From Chloroflexota bacterium (lineage in GTDB: Bacteria; Chloroflexota; Anaerolineae; JAAEKA01): a DNA stretch of 64,000 nt. A program made the translations under genes and the position numbers. Positions 4,920 to 63,813 of the stretch are shown here, in pieces; the first letter of the stretch is position 1; every line of letters begins with the position of its first letter. The stretch is taken from assembly GCA_034717495.1 (NCBI GenBank), contig JAYELL010000038.1, forward strand, positions 79,760 through 143,759, written 5' to 3'. Under the pieces are notes generated by a model. It was not told the DNA's origin. It did not search any database and saw only the letters and a program-made list of their open reading frames with translations.

Positions 4920-4948
4920 TTGACCCCCTGTGCATCCGGTGGTATAGT
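4920..4948 (+). promoter_or_regulatory. Promoter for the DDAH-family gene
   Basis: TTGACC (4920-4925) and TATAGT (4943-4948) are separated by 17 bp, about 30-40 bases ahead of the start codon. Confidence 0.65.
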
Positions 4949-4986
4949 AGCACACGTCGCGTGCGAAACCAATGCCAGGAAGCCAA

Positions 4987-5802
4987 ATGCCAGCAGAGCA
5001 ATCGATCGTTATGAACGGACCGACCCATGCCTTTGTTCGCCCACCGGGCGACTCCTACGAAAAGGCTCTGGGACAAGCGCCGGACGCAGAACCTATCGAT
5101 ATCAACCGGGCTCGTGCCCAACACAGTCTCTATCTCGATGCGCTGCGCGCCAGCGCCATTGAGGTTACGGTGCTGGCGGAGGCCGAGCAGTGGCCCGATT
5201 CCTGTTTCGTGCAGGATGTGGCGCTGCTGCTGCCGGCGTTGAGTATCTTGAGTCGACCTGCAGAACCCTCCCGCCAGGGTGAGGTCGATCTGATCCGTCC
5301 CTATCTTCCCGTGAGAAACCCGGTAGTTGAGATTTCTGCTCCCGGCACGCTTGAATGGGGCGACGTTTTGATCCTCGACCAGAACCTGGTCGTCGGCCTG
5401 TCGGCACGCACCAACCAGGCGGGCAGCGAGCAACTACGCCAATTCGTGGTGCCCCTGGGGCTGACGGTAGAAACATTGACAGTACCCGAGGGTCTGCACC
5501 TGCTCAGTGGTATCAACTCTCTCGGGCGGGCACCCGGTCAGGACGATGGTCCGTTTGTTGTGGTGGCCTGGCCTCTCTACGCCGATCTTGCGCAGATTCG
5601 GGGAGCTGATATTATCGTGACGCCGGATGATGAATCCGGGGCAGCCAACTGCCTGGCTCTGGGCGATACAGTCATCGTGCCGGCAGGCTTTCCCAGGACA
5701 GCGACAGCGATCTGGCGTCGGGGCTTTCGTGTACTGACCGTGCCGATAGGGGAGTTCGCTAAGTCGGATGGTGGAGTGACCTGCTTGAGTTTGCTGTCAT
5801 AA
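4987..5802 (+). CDS. Dimethylarginine dimethylaminohydrolase (DDAH) family protein
   Basis: About 271 residues of the amidinotransferase/DDAH fold. It shows the early FVRPPG loop, the DSCFVQDVALLLP segment with the substrate-binding Asp, the EWGDVLIL strand and the near-C-terminal catalytic Cys in GGVTCLSL. The catalytic His would lie in EGLHLLSG. Family members hydrolyse N-omega-methylated arginines to citrulline and methylamines, or act on related guanidines. AGGA before ATG 4987 favours this start over ATG 4972. A good promoter precedes it and it appears monocistronic. Confidence 0.85.
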   Translation: MPAEQSIVMNGPTHAFVRPPGDSYEKALGQAPDAEPIDINRARAQHSLYLDALRASAIEVTVLAEAEQWPDSCFVQDVALLLPALSILSRPAEPSRQGEVDLIRPYLPVRNPVVEISAPGTLEWGDVLILDQNLVVGLSARTNQAGSEQLRQFVVPLGLTVETLTVPEGLHLLSGINSLGRAPGQDDGPFVVVAWPLYADLAQIRGADIIVTPDDESGAANCLALGDTVIVPAGFPRTATAIWRRGFRVLTVPIGEFAKSDGGVTCLSLLS

Positions 5803-6863: not shown

Positions 6864-8639
6864 ATGACAGAAGGAACAGAAGGAACAGTGGAAGCAACTC
6901 TTCCTTACGACGACGTGGTACCCGGCGCGGTATTGGCCGAGGAAGAAGGACTGGATGGCATGTCCCTGGTCGTCGACCCCGACAAGATCATCGAACTCGT
7001 GACCCATTTGCGGGACGAGGAAGGTTATGATCTTCTCTCAAACCTGACGGGGGTCGACTATCTTGGCTACAAGGATCGCACCAGCGCCGACCGGTTCGAG
7101 GTAGTGTATCATCTCTACTCGACGAAAAAGGGTGGCGGTCCAAAGGTCCTCAAGGTCCGACTTCCGGAGGATGATCCGACGACCCACTCGCTGATCCAGG
7201 AGTACCCGGGCGCCAATCTTCAGGAGCTGGAGGCTTACGACCTCTACGGCATCAAGTTTGCCGGACACCCGAATTTGCGTCGCATATTGCTCTGGGAAGG
7301 CTTCGATGGCCACCCCATGCGCAAGGACTGGCAGGAGCCCTATTTCGAGGCGGAGACCAAACCTTTCAAGAGCCGCCATCCTGCAGGCAATCATAGCTGG
7401 GCCGAGGATCGTAACCCCTGGGGCGCCAACGTGCAATATTGGGAGGGTTTCGACCCCGAGACCTTTGAGGAGCCGGTGGCGATAATGCCATTGGAACGCC
7501 ATGCTGGAAACGGTGTGTCGGGCGCTCTCAAGACCGACCGCCTGGTCGTCAACATGGGCCCGCAGCATCCCAGCACCCATGGCGTGTTTCGTATGATCGT
7601 GGAACTGGAAGGGGAAACCATTACGGCTTTGGAGCCAGAGATGGGCTACCTTCATCGCAACCACGAAAAGATCGGTGAGCGCAACACCTATTTGATGAAC
7701 ATGCCCTATACCGATCGGCTTGATTATATCACTTCTATGTCCAACAATCTGGCCTACGCGGTCGCTGTCGAAAAGTTGCTGGATGAGAGATTTACCCCGC
7801 CGGAACGGGCCGAGTACCTGCGGGTGATCATGGCTGAATTGACCCGCCTCGTCAATCACCTTTTTGCCATCGGTACCTTGCTCAATGACCTGGGCGCGTT
7901 CTTCACCCCTTTGCTCTACACGGTGCGAGAACGGGAACATTTGCTGGATATGTTTGAGTGGGTGTCTGGCAGCCGCATGATGTGCAATTACATGCGTTTT
8001 GGCGGCGTTGCCAGCGATGTGCCGGATGGATGGCTCGAGCAGTGCCGGGAACTCGTTACCAACCGCCTGCCGGCCAAGATCGATGAGTTCGATCGGCTGC
8101 TGACCGACAATGAGATCCTCCAGGTTCGTTGTGTCGGCACCGGCTATCTGTCACCGGAGGATGCGGTGGCACTGAGCTGCACGGGCCCCCAACTGCGTGG
8201 CTGTGGTGTACCCTACGACGTTCGAAAGGCCGAACCCTATTCTATCTACGACCGTTTCGACTTCGATGTGGTTTCCTACAGCGGTGGCGATGTCTACTCC
8301 CGCTATCTGGTGCGCCTTGGGGAGATGCGCCAGAGTCTGCGCATTCTCGAGCAGGCGCTGGATCAGATACCGGAAGGGCCAGTCTTGCCCCCCAAGGGTG
8401 GTGGATACATTATTCGTCCTCCGGCAGGCGATGTCTACGGGCGAATCGAGTCGCCCAAAGGGGAATTGGGCTTTTATCTCGTGTCCAACGGCAAGGGCAA
8501 CCCGTGGCGTTATCGGGTCCGGCCGCCATCCTACATCAATTTGAATGCACTGGCACCTATGTGCATTGGTAGCAAGATTGCCGACTCGGTTATTATCCTG
8601 GGTGGCATCGACATCGTGCTGGGCGAGGTAGACCGCTAG
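6864..8639 (+). CDS. nuoCD: NADH-quinone oxidoreductase fused subunits C and D
   Basis: A 591-residue fusion. Residues ~1-180 are NuoC (30-kDa subunit; signature [18 protein letters not shown]). Residues ~225-591 are NuoD (49-kDa subunit), beginning with the quinone-site motif [12 protein letters not shown] and including [13 protein letters not shown]. The two subunits form part of the quinone-reducing module of complex I next to NuoB and NuoI. The NuoC part is preceded by a short acidic leader. GAGGGA provides the ribosome binding site. C-D fusions are common in several phyla. Confidence 0.94.
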
Positions 8640-8683: not shown

Positions 8684-9775
8684 ATGTTTGGAACTGGATT
8701 ACTGAAGGGCTTGAGCGTTACCATCAAGCGTGCGGTGGAAACATACGTCGACGACGTAAAAGCGATTCCCAGCCGCTATGCCTACGGTCGCGATATGATC
8801 AGGCAGGGTTCTGATGAAGAAGGCATTTATACGATCCAGTACCCGGAAGAGAAGCGCCAGTTGCCGGAGCGTTTTCGTTATCTTCCGATGCTCATCCATG
8901 AGACGTCCGCTGATGAGGATCGTTGCACGGCCTGTGGAATCTGCAGCAAGGTCTGTCCTCCGCAATGTATCTGGATTATCCGTAGCAGCGATGAAAAGGG
9001 CAAACCTGTGCCCAAGCCGGCTGAATTTTTTATCGATACCTCCATCTGCATGAGCTGTGGCTTTTGCGCCGAGTTTTGCCCATTCGATGCTATCAAGATG
9101 AACCATGATTACGAGTTAGCGGTCTTCGAGCGCTATCCGGATATGGTGTACAATCTTGAGGAACTGACGGTTCCCGTCGAATACTATGCAGCCATCTATC
9201 CGACGCAATATGCCGCCGAGGAAGAGCGGCGCGCCGAGGAAGAAGCCAAAAAAGCTGCCAAGGCCGCCAAGAGGAAAAAGCCTGCAGCTCCAGCTGCCAG
9301 GGCCGCGTCCGGAGCAGCAGCAGCCAGCAAGGTGGCCGCAAAACCGGCCCCACACACCTCCGGGCTCAGCCCCGAGGAATTGGAAAAGCGCCGGGAAGAG
9401 GCCAAGGCGCGGGCAGCTGCCCGCAAGGCAGCCGCAGCGGGTGAGGCGGAAGAAGCCAAGGCTGAGTCTGAACCCCTTGCTGCCCAGTCGCAGACTTCCG
9501 GGCTCAGTCCCGAGGAGCTGGAAAAGCGCCGGGAAGAAGCCAGGGCACGAGTGGCCGCCCGCAAGGCCGCTGCCGCGGGAGAAGTCCTCGATGTGGACAA
9601 AAAAGCGGTCGCGCCGGAACCGGTTACCGTTGCCGTCACCTATGGCAAGGTTCTGGGACCAAAGGCGCGGACCTCGGGCACATTGAGCTACGAAGAACTG
9701 GAAAAACGCCGGGCGGCGTCCTACGCGCGCTACAAGGCTCGAAAAGGCGACGATGCCAAGGTTTTGCCACATTGA
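8684..9775 (+). CDS. nuoI: NuoI-like 2x[4Fe-4S] ferredoxin subunit with repeated charged tail
   Basis: Residues 1-175 match NuoI: two ferredoxin motifs, Cys81-x2-Cys-x2-Cys-x3-Cys (CTACGICSKVC) and Cys122-x2-Cys-x2-Cys-x3-Cys (CMSCGFCAEFC), which carry clusters N6a/N6b between the input side and NuoB. NuoI is normally 130-190 residues. Here residues ~178-363 add an Ala/Lys/Glu/Arg-rich tail with three copies of a motif SGLSPEELEKRREEAxAR (about residues 226, 272 and a diverged copy at 331), each followed by ARKAAAAGE-like sequence in the first two. The tail is probably helical and may bind a partner. It ends the nuo group; a terminator follows. Confidence 0.9.
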   Translation: MFGTGLLKGLSVTIKRAVETYVDDVKAIPSRYAYGRDMIRQGSDEEGIYTIQYPEEKRQLPERFRYLPMLIHETSADEDRCTACGICSKVCPPQCIWIIRSSDEKGKPVPKPAEFFIDTSICMSCGFCAEFCPFDAIKMNHDYELAVFERYPDMVYNLEELTVPVEYYAAIYPTQYAAEEERRAEEEAKKAAKAAKRKKPAAPAARAASGAAAASKVAAKPAPHTSGLSPEELEKRREEAKARAAARKAAAAGEAEEAKAESEPLAAQSQTSGLSPEELEKRREEARARVAARKAAAAGEVLDVDKKAVAPEPVTVAVTYGKVLGPKARTSGTLSYEELEKRRAASYARYKARKGDDAKVLPH

Positions 9776-9889: not shown

Positions 9890-9935
9890 GCAAGTAGTTC
9901 GGACGATCTGGACAGAGCGTTTGAGGAGGACACCG

Positions 9936-10619
9936 ATGTCACTTATATTTACACTTCACGGCCACGCATGTTTCACCCTGGCGAACGACGGGGCCACACT
10001 GCTGGTGGACCCCTTTATCACAGACAATCCGGCGGCAATGGTAGCGTCCGAAGACCTGGCGGCAGATTTCATTTTTGTCTCCCATGGTCATTTCGATCAC
10101 CTGCCAGACGCTGCTGATATCGCCAAACGAACCGGCGCTACCGTTTTCGGCACCGTTGAGGTGACCAGTTGGATCGCAGGTCACGGTGTGGAGAAGGTTC
10201 ACGGCATGCAGCCTGGTGGTTCATTCCAGTTTCCCTTCGGACGCGCGAAGTTGACCATCGCCCATCATGGTTCCATCTTGCCCGATGGCAGCTATGGCGG
10301 CGTCGCGGCCGGGGTCATCATCGATATCGGTGGCAAGCGGGTTTACTATACCGGCGACACTGCCTTGAGCTACGACATGAAGCTCTACGGGGAAGAGGGA
10401 ATCGATGTGCTGATCCTGCCCATTGGCGATAATTTCACCATGGGTCCTGAGGATGGCCTGCGCTGTGTCAAGTTTGTCGATCCCAAGGTGGTCATCCCGC
10501 TCCATTACGACACCTGGCCACTGATCGAGCAAAACGTGACAGCCTTTGCGGAAGCGGTGGAAGAGCAGACCGGCGCCCGTTGCATAGCGGCGGCTGTCGG
10601 GGAAGAAGTTGCCTTGTAA
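9936..10619 (+). CDS. UPF0173 metal-dependent hydrolase
   Basis: A 227-residue metallo-beta-lactamase-fold protein of the UPF0173 family. It has the early GHACFTL strand, the zinc-ligand motif SHGHFDHLPDA, the AHHG segment, YTGDTAL with the bridging Asp, and a late PLHYDTWP His. Family members are usually annotated as hydrolases without a known substrate. The start is fixed by a GAGGAGGA ribosome binding site at 9923-9930; the open frame upstream runs into the terminator. It is followed by its own terminator. Confidence 0.9.
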   Translation: MSLIFTLHGHACFTLANDGATLLVDPFITDNPAAMVASEDLAADFIFVSHGHFDHLPDAADIAKRTGATVFGTVEVTSWIAGHGVEKVHGMQPGGSFQFPFGRAKLTIAHHGSILPDGSYGGVAAGVIIDIGGKRVYYTGDTALSYDMKLYGEEGIDVLILPIGDNFTMGPEDGLRCVKFVDPKVVIPLHYDTWPLIEQNVTAFAEAVEEQTGARCIAAAVGEEVAL

Positions 10620-13554: not shown

Positions 13555-14272
13555 TACCTTTTGAGTCAGATTCTTGCACACTGGGCAAGGAGATTATCCG
13601 CGAACCTAACAAGGAAGTACCGCAAACCTGAAAAGAAAAAAACATGACCGTAGCGCTGTCCTGAGTGTAGCCTAAGGGCAAACGTAGATCAATCAATAAA
13701 GAAGATCAGCGAAAACCTGCGCCGAAGGTCTGCGTAATCAGCGTTCTCCTGGCTTGTCCAGGTTAGGTTATTCCCAGCGATTCTCGATATGACGAAATTG
13801 GGCGCTGGAGTCGAGCCAGTGCGTAGCCCCCGTTTCGTCAGAGCGTCGGAGCGTCGGAATGTCAGGATGTCGCCAGGGCAGGCCATTCTGTCTGTCATTG
13901 CGACGCTACGCCAGCACGCTAGCAAGCGGTGCGTGAGCTAGCTAGGTAGGCCCGATCCCTCATCTACCTCGGCGGCGGTTGTGCGTGGGGCAAGGGCCGT
14001 GGCAATCCCAGAGTCCCTGCCCAATCCAACCTTACTTGACTGAAGAATGTTTGAGATCGCCGTCCACGAATAGGGCCACGAATACACGAACAGGGCAGAT
14101 GCAGGGTCACTGCATTCGTGGATGGCCAGCTTCGGCCAGGGACGCGGAGTCGGAATGTCGGAAGGGCAGAATGTCAGAGTGTCGGAGTATCGCTGTGTCG
14201 CCGTGTCGCCCTTCTCCCCATCTCCGCGTCCCCGCGTCGCTCTATCCCCGTGTCCGACCCCGGAACTGACCA
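13555..14272. repeat. Repeat-filled intergenic region between mrp and the Fe-S oxidoreductase
   Basis: No gene is supported. It contains a degraded copy of the GCGCTGTCCTGAG... / CTGCGCCGAAGGTCTGCG repeat (about 13650-13745, also near 26660 and 47810-48045), two octamer-phased tracts (13837-13876 and 14149-14262, words GTCGGANN changing to TCYCCGCG), a CACGAATA-type repeat near 14065-14128, and at 13903-13941 a 39-base sequence whose exact reverse complement lies at 29912-29950. Confidence 0.8.
14149..14262. repeat. Octamer-phased tract, words GTCGGANN to TCCCCGNG
   Basis: Fourteen consecutive in-phase octamers beginning GTCGGAAT, GTCGGAAG, GGCAGAAT, GTCAGAGT, then GTCGCCGT and pyrimidine-rich words TCTCCGCG, TCCCCGCG. 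The tract ends just past the stop codon side of the minus-strand Fe-S oxidoreductase gene. Confidence 0.85.
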
Positions 14273-16291
14273 CTATCCACGATCCACCAATCCCTCAGCC
14301 ACCAGCTCCACCACATCCTTGACCTCGATGCCTTGATCAGCCTGTTTAGAGGCGTCGGTAAGCATGGTGAGGCAGAAGGGGCAACCGACGGCGATCGTCT
14401 TGGCGCCCGTGGCCGCGGCTTCCTCGTAACGACTTTCGTTGACTGCCTTCTGACCCGGTTCCTCTTCCTTCCACATCTGCGCACCACCCGCACCACAGCA
14501 GAAGGATTGGCGTCCCTGGCGTTTCATCTCCACCAGATCGCCGCTGACCCCCTGCAGCACCTGGCGGGGTGGGTCCAGGATATCGTTCTGCCTTCCCAGG
14601 TAGCAGGGGTCGTGGAATGTGACCGGGCCGCTGCTTGCCGGTCCAGACTGGATCTTGCCTTCGAGCATCAGATCGGCAATCAACTGGGTGCTGTGGATCA
14701 CATCGTACTGACCGCCATATTGGTGGTATTCCTTGCCCAGGACATGCATGCAGTGGGGGCATGTAGTGACGATACGCGAAACATCGAACTCATCGAGGAC
14801 TTCGATGTTGCTGAGTGCCAACTCCCAGAAGAGAGCTTCGTTGCCAGACCGGCGGGCCGAGTCGCCGGTGCAGTTTTCCATCTCGCCCAGCACGGCAAAA
14901 TTCACCCCGGCAGCCTTCAGGATGGCAACAAACGCCCTGGCTGTCTTCTGGGCGCGCATGTCGTAGGCGGGCGCGCAACCGACCCACCATAAGATGTCGA
15001 ACTCGGGATTGTCTTCCACGGTCGGAATGTCCAGATCGCTGGCCCAGGCCATCCGGTCTCCCCGGGCCAGGTTCCAGGGATTGCCAGAGCGTTCCATGCC
15101 CCGGAAGGCCTGCTGTAATTCATGGGGAAACTGGCTTTCCATGAGCACCTGGTTGCGGCGAATATGCATGATATCGAACATGGGCTCATTGCCCACGGGA
15201 CAGATCTCAATGCAGGCGCCGCACGCTGTGCAGGCCCACAGCGCGGAGTCACTTATGGCGTAGGTCAGTAGCTGCTCCGAGTCGTCGCCAGCCGCCAGTT
15301 CATTGACATGAGCATTGATGTAGTAGCGTTTGTTGATCTCCAGCGCCGAGGGCGATAGCTCCTTGCCAGTCAGATAGGCGGGGCATTCATCCTGACAGCG
15401 GTTGCACATGATGCAGGCATAGGCATCCAGGATGTGGGTCGAGGGCAGCTGTTCCAGCCTGGCCGCGCCAAACTGCTCGATTTCCTCATCTTCAAAATCC
15501 ATCGGTTCCAGTTCGCCCAGCGAGCTTCGTCGGGGATGAGTCAGGAAATTGAACCCCGACATGATCAGGTGGACGTGCTTGCTGCGGGGAAAGTAGGGGA
15601 TGAAAGCCAGGATCAGGCCCAGAGCAATCCACCAGGAGAGGTGTTGCAGCAGCGTCAGGGTTGAGTCGTTGAATCCGGACCAGAGAGAAGATGCTGCGCT
15701 GGCAAAAGGCTGCCAGGAATCTCCCATGCCCTCCATGGCAAGGCCGAAGCTGACCCCCAGAAATCGAAAGCCCACGTGCAGGATGATGAACACCCCGACG
15801 ATCAGAGAATCGCGGCGCACGGCCCCCTGCCTGACCTTCTCCATGAGCTTGACATTGTCGCGGATTTCCAAGTCTTTGCTGTGGAAGACAAACCGGCGCA
15901 ACAGGAAGTAGATCATGCCGACGATCACGGCAACGCTCAAGAGATCGGCCAGAAGACGAAACAGGTTGCCAACGAGCCCCTGGCCCAGGAAGTGCACGCC
16001 AAAGAAGCCCTCGACGATATCTCCCAGGTTGACCAGAAAATAGAAGATAAAGCCCCAGGCGACCATAGCGTGAAAGAAGCTGGAGACAAACCGGGTATCC
16101 CAAGTTGGCTTCAAGAGGGCCCAGTCTGACAGGGCTTCGCCGACGCGGGATCCCATATCATGAGGAGGGAAGTCTCCCTGGCCACGATTGATGATTTGCC
16201 AGATCCTGCGGAAACCCTGATAGCCGTAATAAAGGGAAACAACGGCCGCCAGAACGAACAGGATCATCTCAATGATGGACAGTTGGAACAT
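14273..16291 (-). CDS. Membrane-bound Fe-S oxidoreductase (HdrDE / EMO-like)
   Basis: A 672-residue fusion. Residues ~1-250 have about six membrane helices resembling the nitrate-reductase gamma/HdrE cytochrome-like subunit. Two 4Fe-4S motifs follow (Cys293-Cys296-Cys299-Cys303 and Cys354-Cys357-Cys360-Cys364), then two HdrD-type CCG domains (VGCAPAYD, ENCTGD, TTCPHCMH; HDPCYLGR, FCCGAGG). This architecture is known as the ETF:quinone oxidoreductase-like DUF224/EMO protein that links beta-oxidation or heterodisulfide-type redox to membrane quinones. A GAGGAG site fixes ATG 16291. Its promoter carries the palindrome shared with the phasin-like gene at 48 kb. Confidence 0.88.
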   Translation of the reverse strand: MFQLSIIEMILFVLAAVVSLYYGYQGFRRIWQIINRGQGDFPPHDMGSRVGEALSDWALLKPTWDTRFVSSFFHAMVAWGFIFYFLVNLGDIVEGFFGVHFLGQGLVGNLFRLLADLLSVAVIVGMIYFLLRRFVFHSKDLEIRDNVKLMEKVRQGAVRRDSLIVGVFIILHVGFRFLGVSFGLAMEGMGDSWQPFASAASSLWSGFNDSTLTLLQHLSWWIALGLILAFIPYFPRSKHVHLIMSGFNFLTHPRRSSLGELEPMDFEDEEIEQFGAARLEQLPSTHILDAYACIMCNRCQDECPAYLTGKELSPSALEINKRYYINAHVNELAAGDDSEQLLTYAISDSALWACTACGACIEICPVGNEPMFDIMHIRRNQVLMESQFPHELQQAFRGMERSGNPWNLARGDRMAWASDLDIPTVEDNPEFDILWWVGCAPAYDMRAQKTARAFVAILKAAGVNFAVLGEMENCTGDSARRSGNEALFWELALSNIEVLDEFDVSRIVTTCPHCMHVLGKEYHQYGGQYDVIHSTQLIADLMLEGKIQSGPASSGPVTFHDPCYLGRQNDILDPPRQVLQGVSGDLVEMKRQGRQSFCCGAGGAQMWKEEEPGQKAVNESRYEEAAATGAKTIAVGCPFCLTMLTDASKQADQGIEVKDVVELVAEGLVDRG

Positions 16292-22259: not shown

Positions 22260-22265
22260 GAATGG

Positions 22266-22487
22266 GTGACACGGCGACACGGCGATACGGAGACGCTGCG
22301 ATGGGGCGACGCGGCGACGCGGCGACGCGGTGACACGGCGATCCTGCGACACGGAGACAGAGGGTCAGAAAAAACCTGATACGGCGTCTCCGGGACTCTG
22401 AGACTCTGATACTCCGGAACTCTGAAACTCTGAAACTCCGACCCTGCGACACTTTGACATGATGACATAATGACATTCTGCCTCTGC
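22266..22487. repeat. Long two-part octamer-phased tract between permease and kinase
   Basis: Twelve in-phase units of GCGACNCG type (22266-22361) are followed, after about 30 bases, by twelve in-phase units of GANACTCY type shading into GACATNAT (22392-22487). The second block ends five bases before the start of the FGGY kinase. This is the longest uninterrupted example of the family in the window. Confidence 0.93.
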
Positions 22488-22492
22488 AACCC

Positions 22493-24022
22493 ATGAACTG
22501 CCAATACATCCTCGCCCACGACCTGGGTACGACAGGCAACAAGGCCACTCTTTTTGCTTCCGATGGCACTGTCGTCGCCTCAACTTTCGTCGGCTACGAG
22601 ACCGATTACCCCCAGCCGAACTGGGTGGAGCAGGATCCTGCCGACTGGCGGGAGGCACTGTTTGGTGCCACTCGCAGGTTGCTCTCCGAGTCAGGGGTGA
22701 ACCCGGGCGAGGTTGCCGTGGTGAGTTTCAGCGGACACATGAATGGCGCCCTGGTGGTGGACGCCGCTGGCGTGCCGCTGCGCCCGGCCATCATCTGGGC
22801 GGATCAGCGAGCCACAGACCAGGAGTGCTTTATCAGAGACCGCTGCGGCAACGACGAAACCTACCGGGTAACTGGCAACCGCGTCAGTCCGGCCTACACC
22901 GCGGCCAAGCTGCTCTGGATAAAGGACAACCAGCCGGAAGTTTTTGGCAGGATTCACAAAGTTCTGCAAGCCAAGGATTACGCGGCCTTTCTTTTCTGCG
23001 GAGTTCTGGCGACCGATTACTCCGACGCTTCGATGACCCAGCTGCTGGATCTGGAAGAGCTAACATGGTCAGGGGACCTGCTGGATCGCCTGGAGTTGGA
23101 CGAGTTGTTGCTGCCAGAGCTGCATACCAGTGCCACCGTAATTGGTGAAGTAACGGTTGAAGCAGCCAGCGCTACCGGGTTGCGAGCCGGGACACCGGTG
23201 GTGATCGGCGGCGGGGATGGCGCCTGTGCCTCTGTCGGTGCAGGATCGGTGCGGGATGGCGAGGTCTACAACTATATTGGCTCTTCCTCGTGGGTGGCGC
23301 TAACGACGGATAAGCCGGTTCTTGATCCCCTCCAACGCACCTTTAACTTCGTTCACCTGGATCCATCGTTGTATGGTGCACTGGGAACTACGCAGACGGC
23401 AGGCGGCGCCTACGATTGGTTTGAGCGCCTGGTCAGGGTCAATGCAGAGCAATATCCCCAATATGCCACTCTCGACGGGCTGGCAGCCGGCGTGCCGCCC
23501 GGGAGCCAGGGTCTGCTCTTCCTGCCCTATCTTCTGGGCGAACGCAGTCCTCACTGGAATCCCCTGGCCCGCGGCGCTTTTGTCGGCCTGGCCATGTCCC
23601 ATGGGCGCCCTGAGTTAGCCCGCTCTGTTCTGGAGGGCGTTGCCTTTAATCTGCGCCATATCCTGGACGTTCTGCGCGTTCAGGGAGTCGCGATCCCCGA
23701 AATGCGTTTGATTGGCGGCGGCGCCAAGAGCAAGCTGTGGCGACAGATTCTTGCGGATGTGTATGCACTTCCTGTGGTGCAATTGCAGTTGCCGGCCCAG
23801 GCGACCTCGCTTGGTGCTGCCGTCGCCGGCGGTATTGGCGTTGGGCTGTTTCCAGATTATACTGTGGTCCAGGACCTGGCGCCCGCGATCTCGCGGGTTT
23901 ATCCCGACCCCGATGCTGTTGCCATTTACGAAGGACTATTCCCGCTGTTCAAAAAGACCTATTGTCTGTTGGAACCGGTATTCCAAGAATTGGCCACGTT
24001 CGCGCGTCAGGCCATCGAGTAG
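22493..24022 (+). CDS. FGGY-family carbohydrate kinase (xylulokinase-like)
   Basis: A 509-residue ASKHA-fold sugar kinase. The N-terminal phosphate-1 motif is DLGTTGNKATLF; WADQRATDQ and GGGDGACASVGAG follow; the late GGGAKSKLWRQILADVY and ATSLGAAVAGG are FGGY C-terminal signatures. It would phosphorylate the imported sugar or its ketose form; xylulokinase is the closest guess. The ribosome binding site is masked by the octamer repeat. The next gene starts 8 bases after its stop behind an AGGAGGAG site. Confidence 0.88.
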   Translation: MNCQYILAHDLGTTGNKATLFASDGTVVASTFVGYETDYPQPNWVEQDPADWREALFGATRRLLSESGVNPGEVAVVSFSGHMNGALVVDAAGVPLRPAIIWADQRATDQECFIRDRCGNDETYRVTGNRVSPAYTAAKLLWIKDNQPEVFGRIHKVLQAKDYAAFLFCGVLATDYSDASMTQLLDLEELTWSGDLLDRLELDELLLPELHTSATVIGEVTVEAASATGLRAGTPVVIGGGDGACASVGAGSVRDGEVYNYIGSSSWVALTTDKPVLDPLQRTFNFVHLDPSLYGALGTTQTAGGAYDWFERLVRVNAEQYPQYATLDGLAAGVPPGSQGLLFLPYLLGERSPHWNPLARGAFVGLAMSHGRPELARSVLEGVAFNLRHILDVLRVQGVAIPEMRLIGGGAKSKLWRQILADVYALPVVQLQLPAQATSLGAAVAGGIGVGLFPDYTVVQDLAPAISRVYPDPDAVAIYEGLFPLFKKTYCLLEPVFQELATFARQAIE

Positions 24023-29680: not shown

Positions 29681-30118
29681 GAAGTAGGCGAGGAGGAAGT
29701 AGACAAGGAAACAAGGAAACAAATAGACAAGTCAACATGATCGTTGGCACACCAGCAACGATGAAAATGCAGGATGGCACTGTCAACCCTTCACGGGATA
29801 CCTACCGAGCTCTCGCATCGCCTGCTACCTAGCTAGCTCTCGCACCGCCTGCTGGCGTCACGCACCGCTTGCTACCTCACGGATCGGCTGCTGCCGTGCC
29901 TCCCGACACGCCTAGCTCACGCACCGCTTGCTAGCGTGCTGGCGTAGCGTGCTGGCGTGGCGTGGGTTCCGGCGCAGGTGTTAACCAATTGTCAATTGAT
30001 CATTAGCCCGGCTCCTGGTGTGTCGGCTAACTTGTCTACTTATTTACTTGTCTACCTGTTTACTTATCTACTTGTCTACTTGCTTCTTTGGTCCCTGTTC
30101 CCCTGTTTCCTTTCCCAC
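29681..30118. repeat. Octamer-phased left and right arms, AAGTAGAC / CTTGTCTA words
   Basis: The left arm (29681-29736) has seven in-phase units such as AAGTAGAC, AAGGAAAC, AAATAGAC. The right arm (30031-30118) has eleven in-phase units such as CTTGTCTA, CTTATTTA, CCTGTTTA. The arm vocabularies are reverse complements of each other and are about 295 bases apart. The same vocabulary flanks the cooS start region. Confidence 0.88.
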
Positions 30119-35398: not shown

Positions 35399-35467
35399 GA
35401 GTAGTTACCGAAAAGTGAACGATTCTGGCCGTTTTTTGTGCCAGCGAAACCCTTGTTGGAGGTCAAC

Positions 35468-37147
35468 ATGAGCAAGTACGCAATTGGCGTAGATTTCGGA
35501 ACAGAGTCGGGCCGCGCCGTACTGGTGGACGTATCAAATGGGCATGAGATCGCCCAGGCAGTCCATCCATACGCTAACGGGGTCATCGACGAACGTCTTC
35601 CCAACAGCGGAATCCCGCTGGAGCCGGACTGGGCGCTGCAGGATCCCAATGACTATCTTGAGGTGTTCAAGCGAGCGATCCCGGCCCTGTTCGAACAGAC
35701 CGACGTGGATCCGGCTGACGTGATTGGCATCGGCATCGACTTTACCGCCTGCACTATGCTGCCCACCAGGGCGGACGGCACGCCGTTGCGTTTTCTGCCC
35801 GAGTGGCGGGACAATCCCCATGCCTGGGTCAAACTATGGAAGCATCATGCGGCTCAACCTGAAGCCAATGCCCTGAACGCGATCGCCGAAGAGATGGGTT
35901 TTTCCTTTCTCGATCGTTACGGTCGCAGAATCAGTTCGGAGTGGTTTTTTCCGAAGGCGTGGCAGATACTGGACGAGGCCCCCGATGTCTACGCGGCGGC
36001 CGAGCGTCTGATCGAAGGTGCGGACTGGGTCGTATGGCAGCTCACTGGCGAGGAGAAGCGCAACTCCTGCACCGCCGGCTACAAGGCTATCTGGTCCAAG
36101 CGTGAAGGATTCCCGGCCAGCGGGTTTTTTGAGGCGCTCGATCCGCGCATGGAGAACATCGTCGAAGAGAAGATGTCGACGGAGCTCTACCCATTGGGAG
36201 ACAGGGCTGGCGGACTGACCGAAGCGGCGGCGGACTGGACAGGCCTCAAGCCAGGTACTGCGGTCGCCATCGGCAACGTCGATGCCCACGTAGCCGTACC
36301 AGCAGCGGGCGTCGTCGAGCCTGGACGCATGGTGATCATCATGGGAACTTCCAACTGTCACATGGTGATGGGAACCGAAGAGCATATGGTTCCAGGAATC
36401 TGCGGCTACGTAGAGGATGGCATCATTGCCGGCTATTTCGGCTATGAAGCGGGCCAGTCCTGCGTGGGCGATCACTTCGCCTGGTTCGTGGACAACTGTG
36501 TGCCTGCAGCCTACGAAGAGCAGGCCCGGGACCGCGGATTGACGGTCCATGATTTGCTGGAGAAGAAGGCTGCCGAGCTAAAGGTGGGCCAAAGCGGCCT
36601 GGTTGCCCTCGACTGGTGGAACGGAAACCGCAGCGTTCTGGTGGATGTGGATCTGACAGGGCTTTTGCTTGGCGCGACTCTGGCGACCAAATCTGAGGAG
36701 ATCTACCGGGCATTGATCGAGGCTACGGCCTACGGTACTCGCATGATCATCGAAACTTTCGAAGAGCACGCGGTACCTGTCGACGAGATTGTCGCGACTG
36801 GCGGATTGCCCGACCGCAACGCACTGCTCATGCAGATCTATGCCGATGTCACCGGGCGATCGATTCGAGTCGCTGAAACGAGTCAGGGCGGTGCACTGGG
36901 ATCAGCCATGCACGGCGCGGTCGCCGCCGGCAGTGCGGCGGGTGGATATGACACTGTTGCCGATGCCGCGGAGAAGATGGCTCGTCTTCGGGATGTTGTC
37001 TACGAACCGATCCCGGAAAACAAGGCGGTCTACGACAGGCTGTATGCCGAGTATGTTATTCTTCATGACTATTTCGGCCGGGGTGCCAACGACGTGATGA
37101 AACGGCTGAAGGAACTGCGGGCAGAGGTGTTGGCGCTCGGTGACTGA
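35468..37147 (+). CDS. araB: Ribulokinase-like FGGY kinase
   Basis: A 559-residue FGGY kinase with the long AraB-type architecture. It starts [57 protein letters not shown] and [11 protein letters not shown] are typical of ribulokinases. It would phosphorylate L-ribulose or a related ketopentose. GGAGGT at 35457-35462 fixes ATG 35468. It follows the isomerase and M24 genes. Confidence 0.88.
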
Positions 37148-37204
37148 TGTCATCATGTCATATTGACATTCTGATATTCTGGCATTCTGATATATTGACA
37201 TGAT
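37146..37204. repeat. Octamer-phased tract, words GANATTCT
   Basis: GACATTCT, GATATTCT, GGCATTCT, GATATATT and GACATGAT run in phase at 37165-37204, preceded by GATGTCAT and CATGTCAT. It fills the short gap between two kinases, just before the second start. Confidence 0.85.
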
Positions 37205-37215
37205 TGGTGGGAACC

Positions 37216-38721
37216 ATGAGCTTGATTGGACTTGACGTAGGAATTACCGGTTGCAAGGCGGTGGCCTTCAATCTCAATGGCGTTGCGCTGGGAGAGGCTT
37301 ACTCTGAATACCGGCTGTATCAGCCCCGGCCAGGCTGGATGGAACTTGATCCCGCCGAGGTGTGGGATGCGGTCACTGGTGTCATTCAGAGGGTGACGGC
37401 ATCCGTCCAGGGAGACCCTGTGCGGGCCATCAGCATCTCAACCCACGGGGAGTCGGTAGTGCCGGTGGATGCCCGGGGCAAGCCTCTCTACGGCTTCATT
37501 ACTGCTATCGATACCCGGGCTGAGGCCCAGGCCCGCTGGTGGGCTGAGGAGGTGGGCAAGGAGCGGCTGTTTCGCATCACCGGCGTGCCTTTGCATCCCA
37601 TGTACACGGTCAACAAACTGATGTGGCTGCGGGAGCGGGAGCCAGACATCTTTGCGCAGGCCGACCGCTTCCTCTGCATGCAGGATTTTCTCTTCTACCG
37701 GATAGGCTTGCCGCCGACCATGGACTATTCTCTGGCGACCCGCACCATGGCCTTCGACGTGACTCGTCTGGACTGGTCGCAGGAGCTGCTGGCGCTGGCG
37801 CAGATCGACGTGAGGCGTCTCTCCGGGACGGTGGAGTCCGGGACGGTGATAGGAACCATCCCCGAGCCAATGGCGGATACCCTGGGGCTGGCGCCCGGCG
37901 TGGTAGGGGTTACTGGCGGGCACGATCAGCCTTCCGGTGCCCTGGGCTGCGGTGCCATCACCGAGGGCGTCGCCATGGACTCCACGGGCACCGTAGAGTG
38001 CGTCGGGCTTGCCACACCTCGTTTGGTGCTGGATGAGGCGTTGATGCGGAACAATCTGCCCATCGCGCCGCACACAGCACCGGGCATGTACATGGTGCTG
38101 GGGTACAGCGCTACAGCGGGCGCGCTGATGCGCTGGTATCGCGATAACTTCGCCCGTGCCGAGCAGATGGAGGCGGATCGCACCGGCCAGGATGTCTATG
38201 ATCTGATCCTTCGGCAGGCCGACTCGGATCCTTCTCCTGTGCTGATCCTGCCCCACTTCATCGGTAGTGGCACCCCCTGGCTGGATCCCGCGTCCAAGGG
38301 CGCGATCCTGGGCCTGGATCTCAGCACTACTGCGGGGCAGGTCATCAAGGGCATGATCGACTCCGTAAGCTACGAGATCAAGTTGAGTCTGGATGCCATG
38401 GAGAAGGCCGGCATCGAGGTGCGGGAGCTACGGGCCTTTGGAGGTGGCGCCAAATCGCCACTGTGGTTGCAGACGAAGGCCGATATCTACGGCAAACCGG
38501 TGGTGGCGATGGATGTTGCCCAGGCTCCCTGTTTGGGTGTGGCCATTCTGGCCGGAATAGCAACCGGGGCGTTCGCGACGGCACAGGACGGGGTCGATCA
38601 GATGGTTCGCTGTGGTCGAACCTTCGAGCCCGACCGGCACCTGCATGAGGCGTACATGGAAAAGGCTGAAGTGTATGCCCAGGTCTATCCCACGCTGCGG
38701 GAGTTAAACCACCAGCTGTGA
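37216..38721 (+). CDS. FGGY-family carbohydrate kinase
   Basis: A 501-residue FGGY kinase starting MSLIGLDVGITGCKAVAFN. It has ISTHGESVVPVD, AIDTRAEAQARWW, VTGGHDQPSGALGCG and the C-terminal FGGGAKSPLWLQTKADI. It resembles xylulo-/gluconokinase relatives more than AraB; the substrate is unknown. ATG 37216 lies behind GGTGGGA. It is the third FGGY kinase of the window and directly follows the ribulokinase. Confidence 0.88.
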   Translation: MSLIGLDVGITGCKAVAFNLNGVALGEAYSEYRLYQPRPGWMELDPAEVWDAVTGVIQRVTASVQGDPVRAISISTHGESVVPVDARGKPLYGFITAIDTRAEAQARWWAEEVGKERLFRITGVPLHPMYTVNKLMWLREREPDIFAQADRFLCMQDFLFYRIGLPPTMDYSLATRTMAFDVTRLDWSQELLALAQIDVRRLSGTVESGTVIGTIPEPMADTLGLAPGVVGVTGGHDQPSGALGCGAITEGVAMDSTGTVECVGLATPRLVLDEALMRNNLPIAPHTAPGMYMVLGYSATAGALMRWYRDNFARAEQMEADRTGQDVYDLILRQADSDPSPVLILPHFIGSGTPWLDPASKGAILGLDLSTTAGQVIKGMIDSVSYEIKLSLDAMEKAGIEVRELRAFGGGAKSPLWLQTKADIYGKPVVAMDVAQAPCLGVAILAGIATGAFATAQDGVDQMVRCGRTFEPDRHLHEAYMEKAEVYAQVYPTLRELNHQL

Positions 38722-51174: not shown

Positions 51175-51191
51175 CTCCGCGACGAACTTTC

Positions 51192-51247
51192 CATCATGCC
51201 ATCACGCCATAACGGCATCTTGACATAATGACACAACGACATCACAG
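51192..51247. repeat. Octamer-phased tract, words CATNANNN
   Basis: Seven in-phase units: CATCATGC, CATCACGC, CATAACGG, CATCTTGA, CATAATGA, CACAACGA, CATCACAG. It fills the gap between the aminotransferase and glycosyltransferase genes and runs into the aminotransferase stop codon at 51242. Confidence 0.85.
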
Positions 51248-54877: not shown

Positions 54878-55405
54878 ATGACAACACGCACCGAGTCGGG
54901 CTCGCGCATGCTTGGCCGAGCCCAAGTCGCCGATATCTTTGGTGTGTCTCCCAGCACGGTCACCCGTTGGGCCGACGCAGGAATGCTTCCGACCATCAAG
55001 ACCCTGGGAGGACACCGCCGATATGACGCAAAGGTCGTCATGGAGTTAGCCAATCAATTTGGCAAGGAGTTCATTGTTATGGAGGAATTGATCATCGGTG
55101 TGCCGAGTATGTATGCCGATCATCACGTGCTCACCGTGCGTGAGGCGCTGCTTAGCATTGACGGCGTAGAAGAGGTAGAGGCCAGCGCCGCTTTCAAGAC
55201 GGTGAGGGTTTTCTTCGACGCCAACGTGGTGAATGCGCAGATCATCGCCGTTGCGCTGCAGGATGCTGGTTATGCACCTGCGGGACTGGCGATGGCGGAG
55301 ATTGCTGTCGTTCCGGTGTCGGATGGTAAAAGGGATCCGGCCTGGGCTCAACTCAACATGCGCACAGTCGAAACACACCCCGCGGAACTAGGGGCCGTCG
55401 CGTAG
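54878..55405 (+). CDS. MerR/BldC-type DNA-binding protein with HMA-like domain
   Basis: A 175-residue regulator. Residues ~10-60 form a MerR/excisionase-type winged helix (LGRAQVADIFGVSPSTVTRW and TLGGHRRYD). Residues ~70-140 look like a ferredoxin-fold heavy-metal-associated domain (LTVREALLSIDGVEEVEAS... VRVFFD), but the metal-binding CxxC is replaced by a Cys-free segment around GVPSMYADHH. It may sense something other than a soft metal. It is directly upstream of cooS. GTGAGGAGAG before ATG 54878 fixes the start. Confidence 0.78.
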   Translation: MTTRTESGSRMLGRAQVADIFGVSPSTVTRWADAGMLPTIKTLGGHRRYDAKVVMELANQFGKEFIVMEELIIGVPSMYADHHVLTVREALLSIDGVEEVEASAAFKTVRVFFDANVVNAQIIAVALQDAGYAPAGLAMAEIAVVPVSDGKRDPAWAQLNMRTVETHPAELGAVA

Positions 55406-55425: not shown

Positions 55426-55534
55426 GAAGTAGACAAGTAGCCAGGGCGCAAAGTAAGCTTGTGCTTGTTTCTAAAACACGAGTTTCCTTGCTTCCTTATC
55501 TACTTGTGTACTTGTTTACTTTATTTACTCCCCA
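55426..55534. repeat. Octamer arms upstream of cooS, GAAGTAGA / CTTGTNTA words
   Basis: The left arm (55426-55457) has GAAGTAGA, CAAGTAGC and AAAGTAAG; the right arm (55487-55534) has CTTGCTTC, CTTATCTA, CTTGTGTA, CTTGTTTA, CTTTATTT, ACTCCCCA, all in phase. The right arm runs directly into the cooS ribosome binding site. It has the same vocabulary as 29681-30118. Confidence 0.85.
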
Positions 55535-57569: not shown

Positions 57570-58060
57570 GATCGGAGGTCAGAGGTTCAGAAATCAGAGG
57601 TTAGCAGCAGATCAGAATCGTGGAGGGGGAGGACCATGTAAATCCGGTCAGTGAAGGATCTGTCTGTGTACAGGAAGGCGTACCAATTGGCAATGGAGAT
57701 ATTCGACATCAGCAAGCAGTGGCCACTCGATGAGTGCTATGCTTTGACCGGGCAGGTCCGACGATCATTCCGGTCAGTGTGCAGCAATATGCGAGAAGCC
57801 TGGGCAAAACGCTTTTACCCAGCGCATTTCGTTAGCAAGCTGACCGATGCTGATGGCGAAAATGCCGAGACAGAGACCTGGCTCGATTTCGCACAAGACA
57901 GTGGGTATCTGTCAGCAACTGATCATGATCGTCTGATCAGTGAAACCAGGCAGATCGGCGCAATGCTCGGATCGATGATTCACAAACCCGAGCCGTTTCT
58001 CCTGCGCAAACGTTTCTAGCCATTGCGCCACTCTGACACTCTGACACTCTGGTACTCCGG
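57570..58060. repeat. Octamer arms split around the four-helix-bundle gene
   Basis: The left arm 57570-57617 has GATCGGAG, GTCAGAGG, TTCAGAAA, TCAGAGGT, TAGCAGCA, GATCAGAA. The right arm is at about 58030-58060 with GACACTCT, GACACTCT, GGTACTCC. They use the same words as the complete elements at 60324, 61984 and 62344, but here the left arm follows cooS and the right arm precedes acsB, with the four-helix-bundle gene between. Confidence 0.85.
57651..58019 (+). CDS. Four-helix-bundle protein (23S rRNA IVP family) with damaged start
   Basis: About 122 residues of the four-helix-bundle family known from 23S rRNA intervening sequences: KDLSVYRKAYQLAMEIFDIS, ALTGQVRRSFRSVCSNMREAW, then a degenerate third helix and LGSMIHKPEPF. 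A strong site GGAGGGGGAGGA precedes ATG 57636, but the second codon is TAA; in the same frame IRSVKDL continues. The original start is therefore interrupted by a nonsense codon, and translation must begin at GTG 57651 if at all. It is inserted between cooS and acsB. Its function is unknown. Confidence 0.75.
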   Translation: MKDLSVYRKAYQLAMEIFDISKQWPLDECYALTGQVRRSFRSVCSNMREAWAKRFYPAHFVSKLTDADGENAETETWLDFAQDSGYLSATDHDRLISETRQIGAMLGSMIHKPEPFLLRKRF

Positions 58061-58079
58061 CAACAAGGAGAACAAACAA

Positions 58080-60323: not shown

Positions 60324-60426
60324 GTCAGAGGATCGGAATATCAGAGTCTCAGAGCGTCAGATTACCAGGGAAACGCCGATAGCAAGGATATTCGACACTC
60401 TGAGACTCCGAAACTCTGACACTCCG
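60324..60426. repeat. Octamer-phased hairpin between acsB and the CBS gene
   Basis: The left arm has GTCAGAGG, ATCGGAAT, ATCAGAGT, CTCAGAGC, GTCAGATT (60324-60363); the right arm has GACACTCT, GAGACTCC, GAAACTCT, GACACTCC (60394-60425). GAGTCTCAGAG (60344-60354) and CTCTGAGACTC (60398-60408) are perfectly complementary over 11 bp. Confidence 0.92.
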
Positions 60427-61000: not shown

Positions 61001-61984
61001 ATGGCTGTGACTATTCCTAAACAGAAGTATACTGGTGCGGTGAGAGAAGTTGTCATCGGCGCTACAGAGGAGGAAGGTGGCACGCGCTCCCATACCGTCA
61101 CCGTGGGTGGCGAGACGACGCTGCCCTTCCTGTTTCACGAGGGCGACATGCCCAATCCACCGCGCATCGCGGTTGAAATCGCCGATCGCCGGCCCAAGGA
61201 TTGGTCCCCTCTTCTATTCGATGCCTGGGGCGACGTGGTCGATGATCTGGCTGCCTGGGCCAAGGCTGCCGAGGCCACCGGAGCCGACCTGATTCTGCTC
61301 AAATTGACCGGACCTGTGCAGCGCGCTGACGGCAGTACCCCCACAATCGACGAGGCCCGCGAGGCCGTTCGCACCGTCCTGGAGGCCACCGGACTGCCAT
61401 TGATGGTATTTGGACCGGGCCAGGTGGACCTGGATAACGAATTGCTGGTGGCTGTGGCCGAGGAGGGGGATGGCGAACGGCTGGTTCTGGGTGTCTGCGA
61501 GGATAAAAACTATCGTACCATCGTGGCAGCGGCTATCGCCCACGGGCATCTGGTGGACAGCCGGACACCTATGGATGTCAACCTGTCCAAGCAGCTGGTG
61601 ATCCTGGTCCGGGATGTGGGCCTTTCTCAGGAACGCATTTTGATGGATCCCAGTACCGGCGCTCTGGGCTATGGTATCGAGTATGGCTACAGCGTTATGG
61701 AACGCCTGCGCCTGGCTGCATTGAGCGGTGATGCCATGACCCAGCAGCCTATGCTGGTTACCCCGGGCGAAGAAGCCTGGAAGCTCAAGGAGTCCAAGGT
61801 TGGCGAGGGAGTTCCTGAAGCCTGGGGCGACTGGGCCGAACGGTCCGTCACCTGGGAGGTGCTCACCGCGACAACCTTACTGCAATCGGGTGCCGACATT
61901 GTGGTGCTACGGCATCCCGAAAGCGTGAAACAGGTTCATGCGACGATCGAGCGCCTGATGACACCGGCAGCCAATGGCACATGA
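61001..61984 (+). CDS. acsD: CO dehydrogenase/acetyl-CoA synthase delta subunit (corrinoid protein small subunit)
   Basis: A 327-residue TIM-barrel subunit of the corrinoid iron-sulfur protein. It pairs with AcsC to carry the methyl group from methyltetrahydrofolate to AcsB. Family features are the early PKQKYTGAVREVVIGA, a central TGPVQRADG, LVDSRTPMDVNLSKQL, LMDPSTGALGYGIEYGYSVMER and TNL-like late segments. AAAGGAG precedes the ATG. Confidence 0.94.
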   Translation: MAVTIPKQKYTGAVREVVIGATEEEGGTRSHTVTVGGETTLPFLFHEGDMPNPPRIAVEIADRRPKDWSPLLFDAWGDVVDDLAAWAKAAEATGADLILLKLTGPVQRADGSTPTIDEAREAVRTVLEATGLPLMVFGPGQVDLDNELLVAVAEEGDGERLVLGVCEDKNYRTIVAAAIAHGHLVDSRTPMDVNLSKQLVILVRDVGLSQERILMDPSTGALGYGIEYGYSVMERLRLAALSGDAMTQQPMLVTPGEEAWKLKESKVGEGVPEAWGDWAERSVTWEVLTATTLLQSGADIVVLRHPESVKQVHATIERLMTPAANGT

Positions 61985-62080
61985 TCAGAGGATCAGAATG
62001 CCAGAGGGCAATCGTTCTTGTGAATTTCTGACATTCTGAGACTCCGACACCCTGAGACTCCGACACTCTGAAACCCTGCC
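61984..62080. repeat. Octamer-phased hairpin between acsD and the NifU-like gene
   Basis: TCAGAATG (61995-62002) pairs with CATTCTGA (62032-62039) within a longer imperfect stem. The right arm continues in phase with GAGACTCC, GACACCCT, GAGACTCC, GACACTCT, GAAACCCT up to the next ribosome binding site. Confidence 0.88.
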
Positions 62081-62344: not shown

Positions 62345-62446
62345 ACAGAGGATCAGAAGCCAGAAAGTCAGAGGGCCAGAAATGGGCTCGATTTGAGACT
62401 CTGGGACTCTGGAACTCCGATACTCCGATACTCCGATACTCTGCAC
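62344..62446. repeat. Octamer-phased hairpin between the NifU-like gene and acsC
   Basis: The left arm has CAGAGGAT, CAGAAGCC, AGAAAGTC and AGAGGGCC-type words (62346-62380). The right arm has GAGACTCT, GGGACTCT, GGAACTCC, GATACTCC, GATACTCC, GATACTCT (62395-62442), six perfect in-phase units. Confidence 0.92.
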
Positions 62447-62466: not shown

Positions 62467-63813
62467 ATGGCCCTATCCGGCCTTCAGATTTACAAACTAC
62501 TGCCCAGGACCAACTGCAAGGATTGTGGTTTTCCTACCTGTCTGGCCTTTTCTATGAAACTGGCCCAGAAGCAGGTGGAACTGGCTGCTTGCCCTCATGT
62601 GAGCGATGACGCCAAGGCTGCCCTTTCCGAGGCGGCAGCACCGCCTATTCGCCTGATCACGGTAAGCAGTAATGGCCACAAGTTGGAAGTGGGCAACGAG
62701 ACGGCGCTTTTCCGCCATGAGAAAAGATTCTTCCACCAACCAGGTCTCTTTGTCCGGGTGAAGGATGGCGATCCGCTGGATGAGGTGAAATCGACGGTTG
62801 CCGAGGTGGATGATTACATGGTCGACTACGTTGGCATTGAGTTGAGATTCGACGGCATTGCTGTGGAATGCACTTCAGGGGATCCTGAAACCTACGGCAG
62901 TGTGGTGGGTGCCATTTGCGATGCAACCGACAAACTGCTGATCCTGATGGCGGACGATCCAAAGGTCATCAAAGCCGGACTGGCGGCTGCTGGTGAGGAG
63001 CGGAAACCGCTGATCTACAGTGCTGATGGCGACAACTGGCGGCGGATTGCCCTTCAGGCCAAAAAGGTTGGCGCGCCCCTGGTCGTGCGGGTTGACGACG
63101 GCGATCTCGATGCGCTGGCAGAGCTCACCGAGCAGGTCGTCAATTTTGGAGTCGACGACATCGTATTGGATCCCGGTGTACGCGATTTCAATGAGTCGCT
63201 GGCGACCCTGACGGCTGTGCGTCGTCTGGCCCTGAAGGAAAACTTCCGGCCGCTGGGATACCCGGTTATCACCTTCCCTGGCGAGGGAGCCAACGATGCC
63301 TCGAGCGAAGTGGTTCTGGCAAGCCAGCAGATTGCCAAGTACAGCGGCTTCGTGGTTGTGGATCACTTCACACCCGCGTCTGCTTATGCGCTTCTGGTGC
63401 TGCGGGCCAACATCTTCACCGATCCCCAGAAGCCGATCCAGGTTGAACCGGGCATCTACGAGATCAATAATCCCGGCCCCGATGATCCGGTGATGGTTAC
63501 CACCAATTTCAGTATTACCTACTTCAGTGTGGCCAACGAGTTGGAGAGCAGCGGAAAGCCTGGCTGGCTGATGGTCGCCGACGCCGAGGGCATGAGCGTA
63601 CTCACCGCCTGGGCCGCCGGTAAATTTGATGCAGAACGCATCGCCAAGGGTGTCAAGGAATTCGGCATCGAGGACAAGATCAATCACAACAGTTTGATCT
63701 TGCCCGGGCATGTGGCCGTACTTATGGGTGAACTGGAAGAAGAACTGCCCGGCTGGAAGATCATGGTCGGCCCGCGCGAGGCGGTTGATCTGCCGGGCTT
63801 CCTGAAGATGTAG
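62467..63813 (+). CDS. acsC: CO dehydrogenase/acetyl-CoA synthase gamma subunit (corrinoid protein large subunit)
   Basis: A 448-residue large subunit of the corrinoid iron-sulfur protein. The N-terminal 4Fe-4S domain uses Cys17, Cys20, Cys25 and Cys42 (NCKDCGFPTC... ELAAC). It is followed by a TIM barrel and a C-terminal B12-binding domain (LPGHVAVLMGELEEELPGWKIMVGPREA). It holds the cobamide that carries the methyl group. GAGGAGA supports ATG 62467; the frame extending upstream is in the octamer repeat. Confidence 0.95.
   Translation: MALSGLQIYKLLPRTNCKDCGFPTCLAFSMKLAQKQVELAACPHVSDDAKAALSEAAAPPIRLITVSSNGHKLEVGNETALFRHEKRFFHQPGLFVRVKDGDPLDEVKSTVAEVDDYMVDYVGIELRFDGIAVECTSGDPETYGSVVGAICDATDKLLILMADDPKVIKAGLAAAGEERKPLIYSADGDNWRRIALQAKKVGAPLVVRVDDGDLDALAELTEQVVNFGVDDIVLDPGVRDFNESLATLTAVRRLALKENFRPLGYPVITFPGEGANDASSEVVLASQQIAKYSGFVVVDHFTPASAYALLVLRANIFTDPQKPIQVEPGIYEINNPGPDDPVMVTTNFSITYFSVANELESSGKPGWLMVADAEGMSVLTAWAAGKFDAERIAKGVKEFGIEDKINHNSLILPGHVAVLMGELEEELPGWKIMVGPREAVDLPGFLKM

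Follow-up and report, generated by a model that had tools for sequence, protein, structure and literature searches.

The window, by which we mean the whole 64,000-nucleotide stretch analysed here, comes from a member of the Anaerolineae (Chloroflexota) and contains 13 tracts with a period of 8 nucleotides, as detected with a finder of segments that match themselves at lag 8. On the plus strand these are GAC(A/C/G)(C/T)(G/T)GC at 73–195, upstream of the gene at 273; GTCNGAGC at 13836–13871; GACACGGC at 22265–22369, which begins 6 bases past the TAG stop of an ABC permease gene; GANACTCY followed by GACATNAT at 22382–22482, which finishes 10 bases before the ATG of an FGGY kinase gene at 22493; a left array of AAGTAGAC/AAGGAAAC ending in AAGTCAACATG at 29697–29739, joined to a conserved stem-loop; TGTCATNA and then GACATTCT at 37145–37201, which takes up the space separating two FGGY kinase genes; CATNANNN/GACATNAT at 51183–51245, filling the gap between two minus-strand genes; and CACTCTGA at 58019–58062, upstream of acsB, where the gene called at 58023 probably begins too early. 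On the minus strand, the tract at 14149–14240, before the stop edge of a minus-strand gene at 14273, is made of GCGACACG- and GACATTCC-like words that drift along its length and run inward on that strand, and the right array at 30030–30112, which reads CTTGTCTA on the plus strand, is inward AAGTAGAC on the minus strand. The other tracts called by the finder (55482–55525, 61978–62078 and 62392–62443) lie in two-armed spacers: two short arrays facing inward at 55427–55525, one of 2 AAGTAGAC units and one of 5 TTGTNTAC units, between a stop at 55405 and a CO dehydrogenase gene; a TCAGAGNN left arm with a CTCTGA right arm at 61978–62078; and a TCAGAGNN left arm with a ACTCCGAT/ACTCTGGG right arm at 62347–62443, ending before the ATG at 62467. 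The spacer after acsB (60338–60426) passes from TCAGAGNN units to GACACTCT units.

The tracts named in an earlier note on this DNA thus lie close to where it had placed them, that at 55426–55534 being present but weak, and the strict 8-base phase it described is borne out by the lag-8 scan and by TRF (22268–22359, period 8, 11.5 copies; 22395–22438, period 8, 5.5 copies). Its claim of complementary arms holds for the AAGTAGAC and TCAGAG/CTCTGA spacers but does not extend to 22266–22487, where the two runs are direct and form no hairpin. The window also carries three FGGY-type carbohydrate kinase genes (22493–24022, 35453–37147 and 37207–38721), two of them adjacent to each other and two directly preceded by octamer spacers. 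Two of its spacers (13890–13960 and 29800–29970) contain another repeat module, CGCCAGCACGCTAGCAAGCGGTGCGTGAGCTAGCTAGGTAGGC along with the reverse.

The period is a property of the genome at large. In 822 kb sampled from the 5.0 Mb of the window's own genome (16%; contigs C1, C38 and others), lag 8 gave 49 intergenic tracts (517/Mb) against 8 coding ones (11/Mb), with gene calls from a hexamer model fitted to the genome's own long ORFs and gene starts predicted. Intergenic tracts at other lags in the same sample numbered nine at lag 7, four at lag 9 and none at lags 4–6, 11 and 12; those at lags 16 and 24 are harmonics of 8. Plain autocorrelation at lag 8 was 0.288 in intergenic and 0.248 in coding DNA. 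No tract appeared at lags 7–9 in first-order Markov shuffles of 456 kb, or at lags 5–12 in 200 kb of E. coli K-12 searched with the same finder. The genome-wide excess on which the earlier note had staked the family beforehand is therefore there, and coding regions are avoided as it had claimed, some tracts extending a few bases into gene ends. The genomes analysed are mostly draft MAGs, and with species that are related and loci partly chosen for carrying arrays, the significance values given below are optimistic.

Many of the own-genome words, brought into one phase and strand, read GACANNNN. The core GACA occurs in the consensus of 27 of 57 own-genome tracts, where 4.2 would be expected from letter-shuffled words, and in 15 of 41 (2.4 expected) once the AAGTAGAC family is set apart. 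A few word families, GACANNNN, ANGTANAC and TCAGAGNN/NNCTCTGA, serve many loci, and the ANGTANAC form that the AAGTAGAC family takes across genomes is common to 43 of 298 Anaerolineae genomes, with 0–1 control matches each, and, among about 320 Chloroflexota genomes from other classes, occurs in 1; the different word set per locus that had been proposed therefore does not stand as worded. What survives of it are locus dialects within a family: in G147, G222 and G178 the distance between units of one locus was smaller than in every permutation, whereas in the window genome's AAGTAGAC family the difference was not significant (1.12 versus 1.16). Column dissent in ANGTANAC units ranges from 0.08 at the G to 0.36 at the sixth position, the highest, and since phase is kept despite this 8–36% dissent per column, homogenisation or selection must act.

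The arrays abut gene borders, beginning at or a few bases from a stop codon and ending before a ribosome-binding site, and among own-genome spacers of 120–600 bp they occupy 19 of 157 codirectional gaps and 1 of 51 divergent ones. Read 5' to 3' inward from the gene on either side, the array strand is G-rich in 208 cases and C-rich in 50, and purine-rich in 203 against 63, whatever the orientation of the genes. This inward G excess is present at stop and start edges alike, and G exceeds C outside the AAGTAGAC family as well; edges without a tract show no such excess, and in the relatives start edges without a tract lean the opposite way. Likewise, all 26 pairs of ANGTANAC arms lying no more than 250 bp apart are inward (a word, then its complement), and none is outward. 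The polarity is symmetric about the gap and hence independent of transcription. In these 26 hairpins the order of the variable letters in one arm is uncorrelated with that in the other (mean z −0.07), so that neither arm is simply a copy of its partner, and fold-back copying between arms was rejected on this ground.

The arrays also keep phase with the stop codon. Where an array was detected from gap sequence alone and its start lies no further than 12 nt from a stop, the last 8 coding bases match it in phase at 0.43 for period 8 and 0.37 for period 7, against 0.26 in other phases for both, and the match fades further upstream. The stop codon itself is the in-phase trinucleotide of 24 of 86 lag-8 arrays (4.1 ± 1.9 expected; maximum 11 in 2000 trials), of 15 of 72 when arrays entering the ORF are excluded (2.7 expected, maximum 9), and of 13 of 107 arrays at lag 7 (2.8 expected). 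At L071, L079 and L089 the TAG stop of acsB, fixed by homology, supplies the three letters with which an array of TAGTC or TAGTT type begins. In-phase stops can be due in part to arrays overrunning the original gene end. We rejected a pure function as arrays of stop codons, based on 7 and 8 being coprime to 3, because periods 10 and 11 would serve equally well and yet are nearly absent.

Relatives show how labile the arrays are. The window acsB was used to fetch 80 acsB loci, by title from Anaerolineae or other Chloroflexota MAGs except for one 'uncultured bacterium', and their spacers carry period 7 at 768/Mb, period 8 at 339/Mb and period 9 at 89/Mb, whereas periods 10 and 11 are all but absent. 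Period goes with the locus rather than with the genome, several genomes having both 7 and 8, and the octamer is not the distinctive trait that the first reading made of it: in relatives 7-mers are no less common, and orthologous gaps sometimes have the one in place of the other. Between congeners, compared at roughly 80–90% nucleotide identity, family matches are patchy, with 332 against 0 (G147, G191), 149 against 0 and 0 (G105, G209, G239) and, in the window's own family, 144 in G004 against 0 in G002 and 0 in G003; G002 lacks period 8 throughout 210 kb and has period 7 at 653/Mb. Congeners lack the AAGTAGAC word, even though it recurs at numerous loci and in unrelated families.

Single gaps tell the same story. 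At L215:13362–13517, G105 has 7- and 8-mer arrays, its congener G209 has 27 bp without an array, too diverged to show any target-site duplication, and G239 has unrelated sequence. At L197:9785, after a shared GGGTGA gene end, G067 reads GGGTGACC followed by four units of AGTAGACA, and the counterpart in its congener G148 reads GGGTGACA CGGTGACC AGGTGACA CGGTGACG, with equal phase and the letters AG..GACA in common but different words. One divergent gap of the window's own family retains, at its middle, a core resembling a promoter (GCGCAGCTTGCCGTCGCGCC.GTTCCGGTGTACCATA in G002 and G003, with a diverged match in G004) and differs at both edges: G004 has repeated GTGACAGG and repeated CCTGTCAC, G003 has an array of CGTAAC-type heptamers with CCTGTCAC-type units, and G002 has an array of CGTAACC heptamers with GCAGATG units. 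Across 72 homologous acsB 3' ends, too, spacers differ in word, period or presence. The comparison of syntenic gaps that the earlier note had proposed thus shows, over a handful of gaps, words changing together, sometimes along with the period. Two further features of L197 may be recorded: about 32 GATTCGCT units form an array at 9892–10150 in G067 that is absent from the orthologous gap in G148, and a long dispersed palindrome, GTAACTACTCAGCCGCCGTGTCATTGCGAGCG...GCGAAGCAATC, occupies the same kind of spacer as the arrays (4935–5112 and 8860–9010 in G067, with many copies in G148). Among 2.9 million viral contigs in IMG/VR, examined for spread by phage, four (L300–L303) carry a triple GTAGACA octamer, and these may be prophage, phage or host contamination.

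The stem-loop beside the left AAGTAGAC array, ATCGTTGGCACACCAGCAACGAT (29740–29762, plus strand), is part of a composite dispersed repeat. It occurs in nine copies in the 822 kb of the own genome, eight of which have an octamer AAGTAGAC array directly upstream, with the array, mostly ending in AAGTCAACATG, meeting the stem-loop at nearly the same base. Behind the stem-loop come GAAAATGCAGGCTGGCACGG, mosaic modules rich in GCTAGC/CGCACCGCTTGCT and the end CTTGTCTACTGTCCTGAAAA; copies lie at 29740–30020 in the window and at L032, L033, L036, L037, L042, L046, L142 and L148. No constant outer ends were found in the nine aligned composites. The near-constant junction in eight of the nine points to copying of the array together with the stem-loop, and at least this composite is copied between loci of the own genome.

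We suggest, at about even chances, that these are STRR-like phased arrays of fast turnover, grown by slippage of 7–8 nt at gene borders and spread by copying. Arrays would arise inside the spacer through repeated re-copying of 7–8 nt, by slippage or short template switching, as the 3' end of DNA synthesis leaves the gene border, with the stop codon and adjoining bases often acting as unit zero. Existing arrays, with any modules attached to them, would then be copied into other spacers, by which a genome would acquire its dialect. Natural selection would mostly purge arrays from coding DNA and promoters, leaving them between stop codon and ribosome-binding site, where a hairpin would be tolerated and may passively protect or uncouple mRNAs. 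We infer both the generator, slippage or template switching, and copying as the means of spread. Uncorrelated arm orders are what would be expected if each arm grows by itself, and the restriction to 7 and 8 agrees with the view that bacterial repeats favour 7 nt because of how much DNA the polymerase holds (Mrazek et al., 2007, as cited in PMC4679880). The presence of the same AAGTAGAC word in several families is impossible by independent slippage, so that copying or horizontal transfer must be added. Ordinary slippage predicts neither the inward G-rich polarity nor the 26:0 orientation of the hairpins.

That polarity is where the strongest competitor has its advantage. A mobile palindromic element of the REP or MITE kind, inserted into spacers by a transposase and with arms later expanded by slippage, would keep its arms inward in any insertion orientation, and dispersed copies, bursts within a genus and the own-genome composite with its stem-loop and near-constant junction all fit such an element. 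We nevertheless hold it to be possible rather than probable: it leaves the exchange of periods 7 and 8 at the same border unexplained, the composite interiors are mosaics and no constant outer ends were seen in the nine aligned copies, and the enzyme is missing where it should be found, the Y1 transposase being absent from the array-rich G067 and below the cut-off in G035 but present in the array-poor G212 and G191. A link to REP/RAYT systems was rejected on the same ground, as counts of the Y1 transposase (PF01797) do not follow array counts. REP (PMC3733652) and REPIN (PMC3116915) sequences resemble the arrays in being dispersed extragenic palindromes, often downstream of genes; they are, however, single stem-loops of 20–40 bp with GTAG/CGTC tags and RAYT linkage, whereas the arrays are phased in 7 or 8 nt, multi-unit and up to hundreds of bases long, and the ATCGTTGGCACACCAGCAACGAT stem-loop belongs to one composite only.

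An explanation at the level of RNA appears unlikely. It would make the arrays functional hairpins in operon spacers, for mRNA 3'-end protection or translational uncoupling, whose structure is selected as the words drift, and it draws on the position between stop and ribosome-binding site and on the folding of spacers at the 80 acsB loci, where codirectional spacers lie far below shuffles (mean z −3.0; 132 of 412 below −4) and none of 40 divergent ones does. In the window's own genome, however, folding of codirectional spacers is weak (mean z −0.95), with no value as low as −4 among the 28 periodic ones. Sense and antisense energies are equal (p 0.53), single mismatches in stems are about as often G-U (50) as A-C (43), both in accord with a polarity symmetric about the gap, and the two arms of the 26 hairpins do not match in the order of their variable positions; selection on the RNA thus leaves no signal in G-U tolerance or in sense versus antisense energies. 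Rfam covariance models gave no gathering-level match in the window. For intrinsic terminators, with their strand-specific G+C-rich stem and the U-run behind it, the comparison covered geometry and strand: the dyad is centred on the gap and bears no strand signature. Across the class, codirectional spacers fold far more strongly than divergent ones, and in L051–L130 the spacer after acsB often holds a long stem-loop even without periodicity, its sequence unrelated from species to species.

Telomere-like addition, with arrays written onto 3' DNA ends at gaps and the two ends then joined, is distinctly improbable. A gene-side 3' end, primed by a few matching bases that would often be the stop codon, would receive degenerate G- or purine-rich units of 7–8 nt from a small pool of templates. 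If true, it would account in one step for the G-rich polarity towards the gap, for stops that lie in phase, for the independence of the arms and for gain and loss at particular gaps. Less likely still are arrays of sites for a DNA-binding protein with a core like ANGTANAC or GACANNNN as its target: the uneven variability of the columns and the orientation of the arrays would suit one, but words and even the period differ between congeners at the same gap, and entire families are lost inside a single genus, behaviour hard to reconcile with a conserved factor. Assembly artefact or chance low complexity has next to no standing, for although one own-genome AAGTAGAC array (L142, about 7496–7603) holds a run of N, from which long arrays are probably under-assembled, the shuffles and E. 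coli K-12 gave zero tracts and the same array families recur across many independent assemblies, which we count as already refuting an artefact.

We return to STRR-like arrays grown by slippage and spread by copying. Cyanobacterial STRRs, which the earlier note had aptly offered as precedent, are 7-bp repeats that can form hairpins between genes, for example hupS and hupL, and roles in transcript stability or translational coupling have been proposed for them (PMC2670836); the spacer in the Nostoc hyp operon has ATTGCGAATTGCGAATTG, and repeats of that operon read ATTGCGAATTGCG (PMC2408588). The likeness extends to short, phased, hairpin-forming intergenic units at many loci, operon spacers among them, and the STRR word ATTGCGAATTG is also present in the own genome (L138). 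Tandem short intergenic units are found here too, with period 8 in the own genome and 7 and 8 in relatives, but the unit length departs from the heptamer norm, the octamer being the main period in the window genome, and the units are degenerate, keeping a core as other columns vary, and fall into families with dialects. In the same phylum, Chloroflexus aurantiacus carries (GATAGRA)n heptamer satellites (PMC6749651), short units at many places but of one heptamer word, whereas the Anaerolineae have many word families and period 8. The TAACTGA direct repeats of Beggiatoaceae (PMC4679880) are likewise scattered intergenic heptamers, mostly just upstream of start codons, of one fixed word, whereas in the present arrays words differ both inside a locus and from one locus to another, and inverted arms are frequent. 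In the open-access literature we found no description of octamer arrays in Chloroflexota, nor, for STRRs, of inward polarity, stop-codon phasing or uncorrelated arms.

Phased repeats in bacterial spacers have been familiar since the cyanobacterial STRRs were described, and their origin is still without an accepted account. Any explanation is now constrained by an inward polarity that is independent of transcription, by the phase of the stop codon, by the independence of the two arms and by the exchange of word and period at the same gap in sister species. As several genera contain both array-rich and array-free congeners (G105/G209, G147/G191 and G004/G002), the question of how such arrays originate has become answerable.
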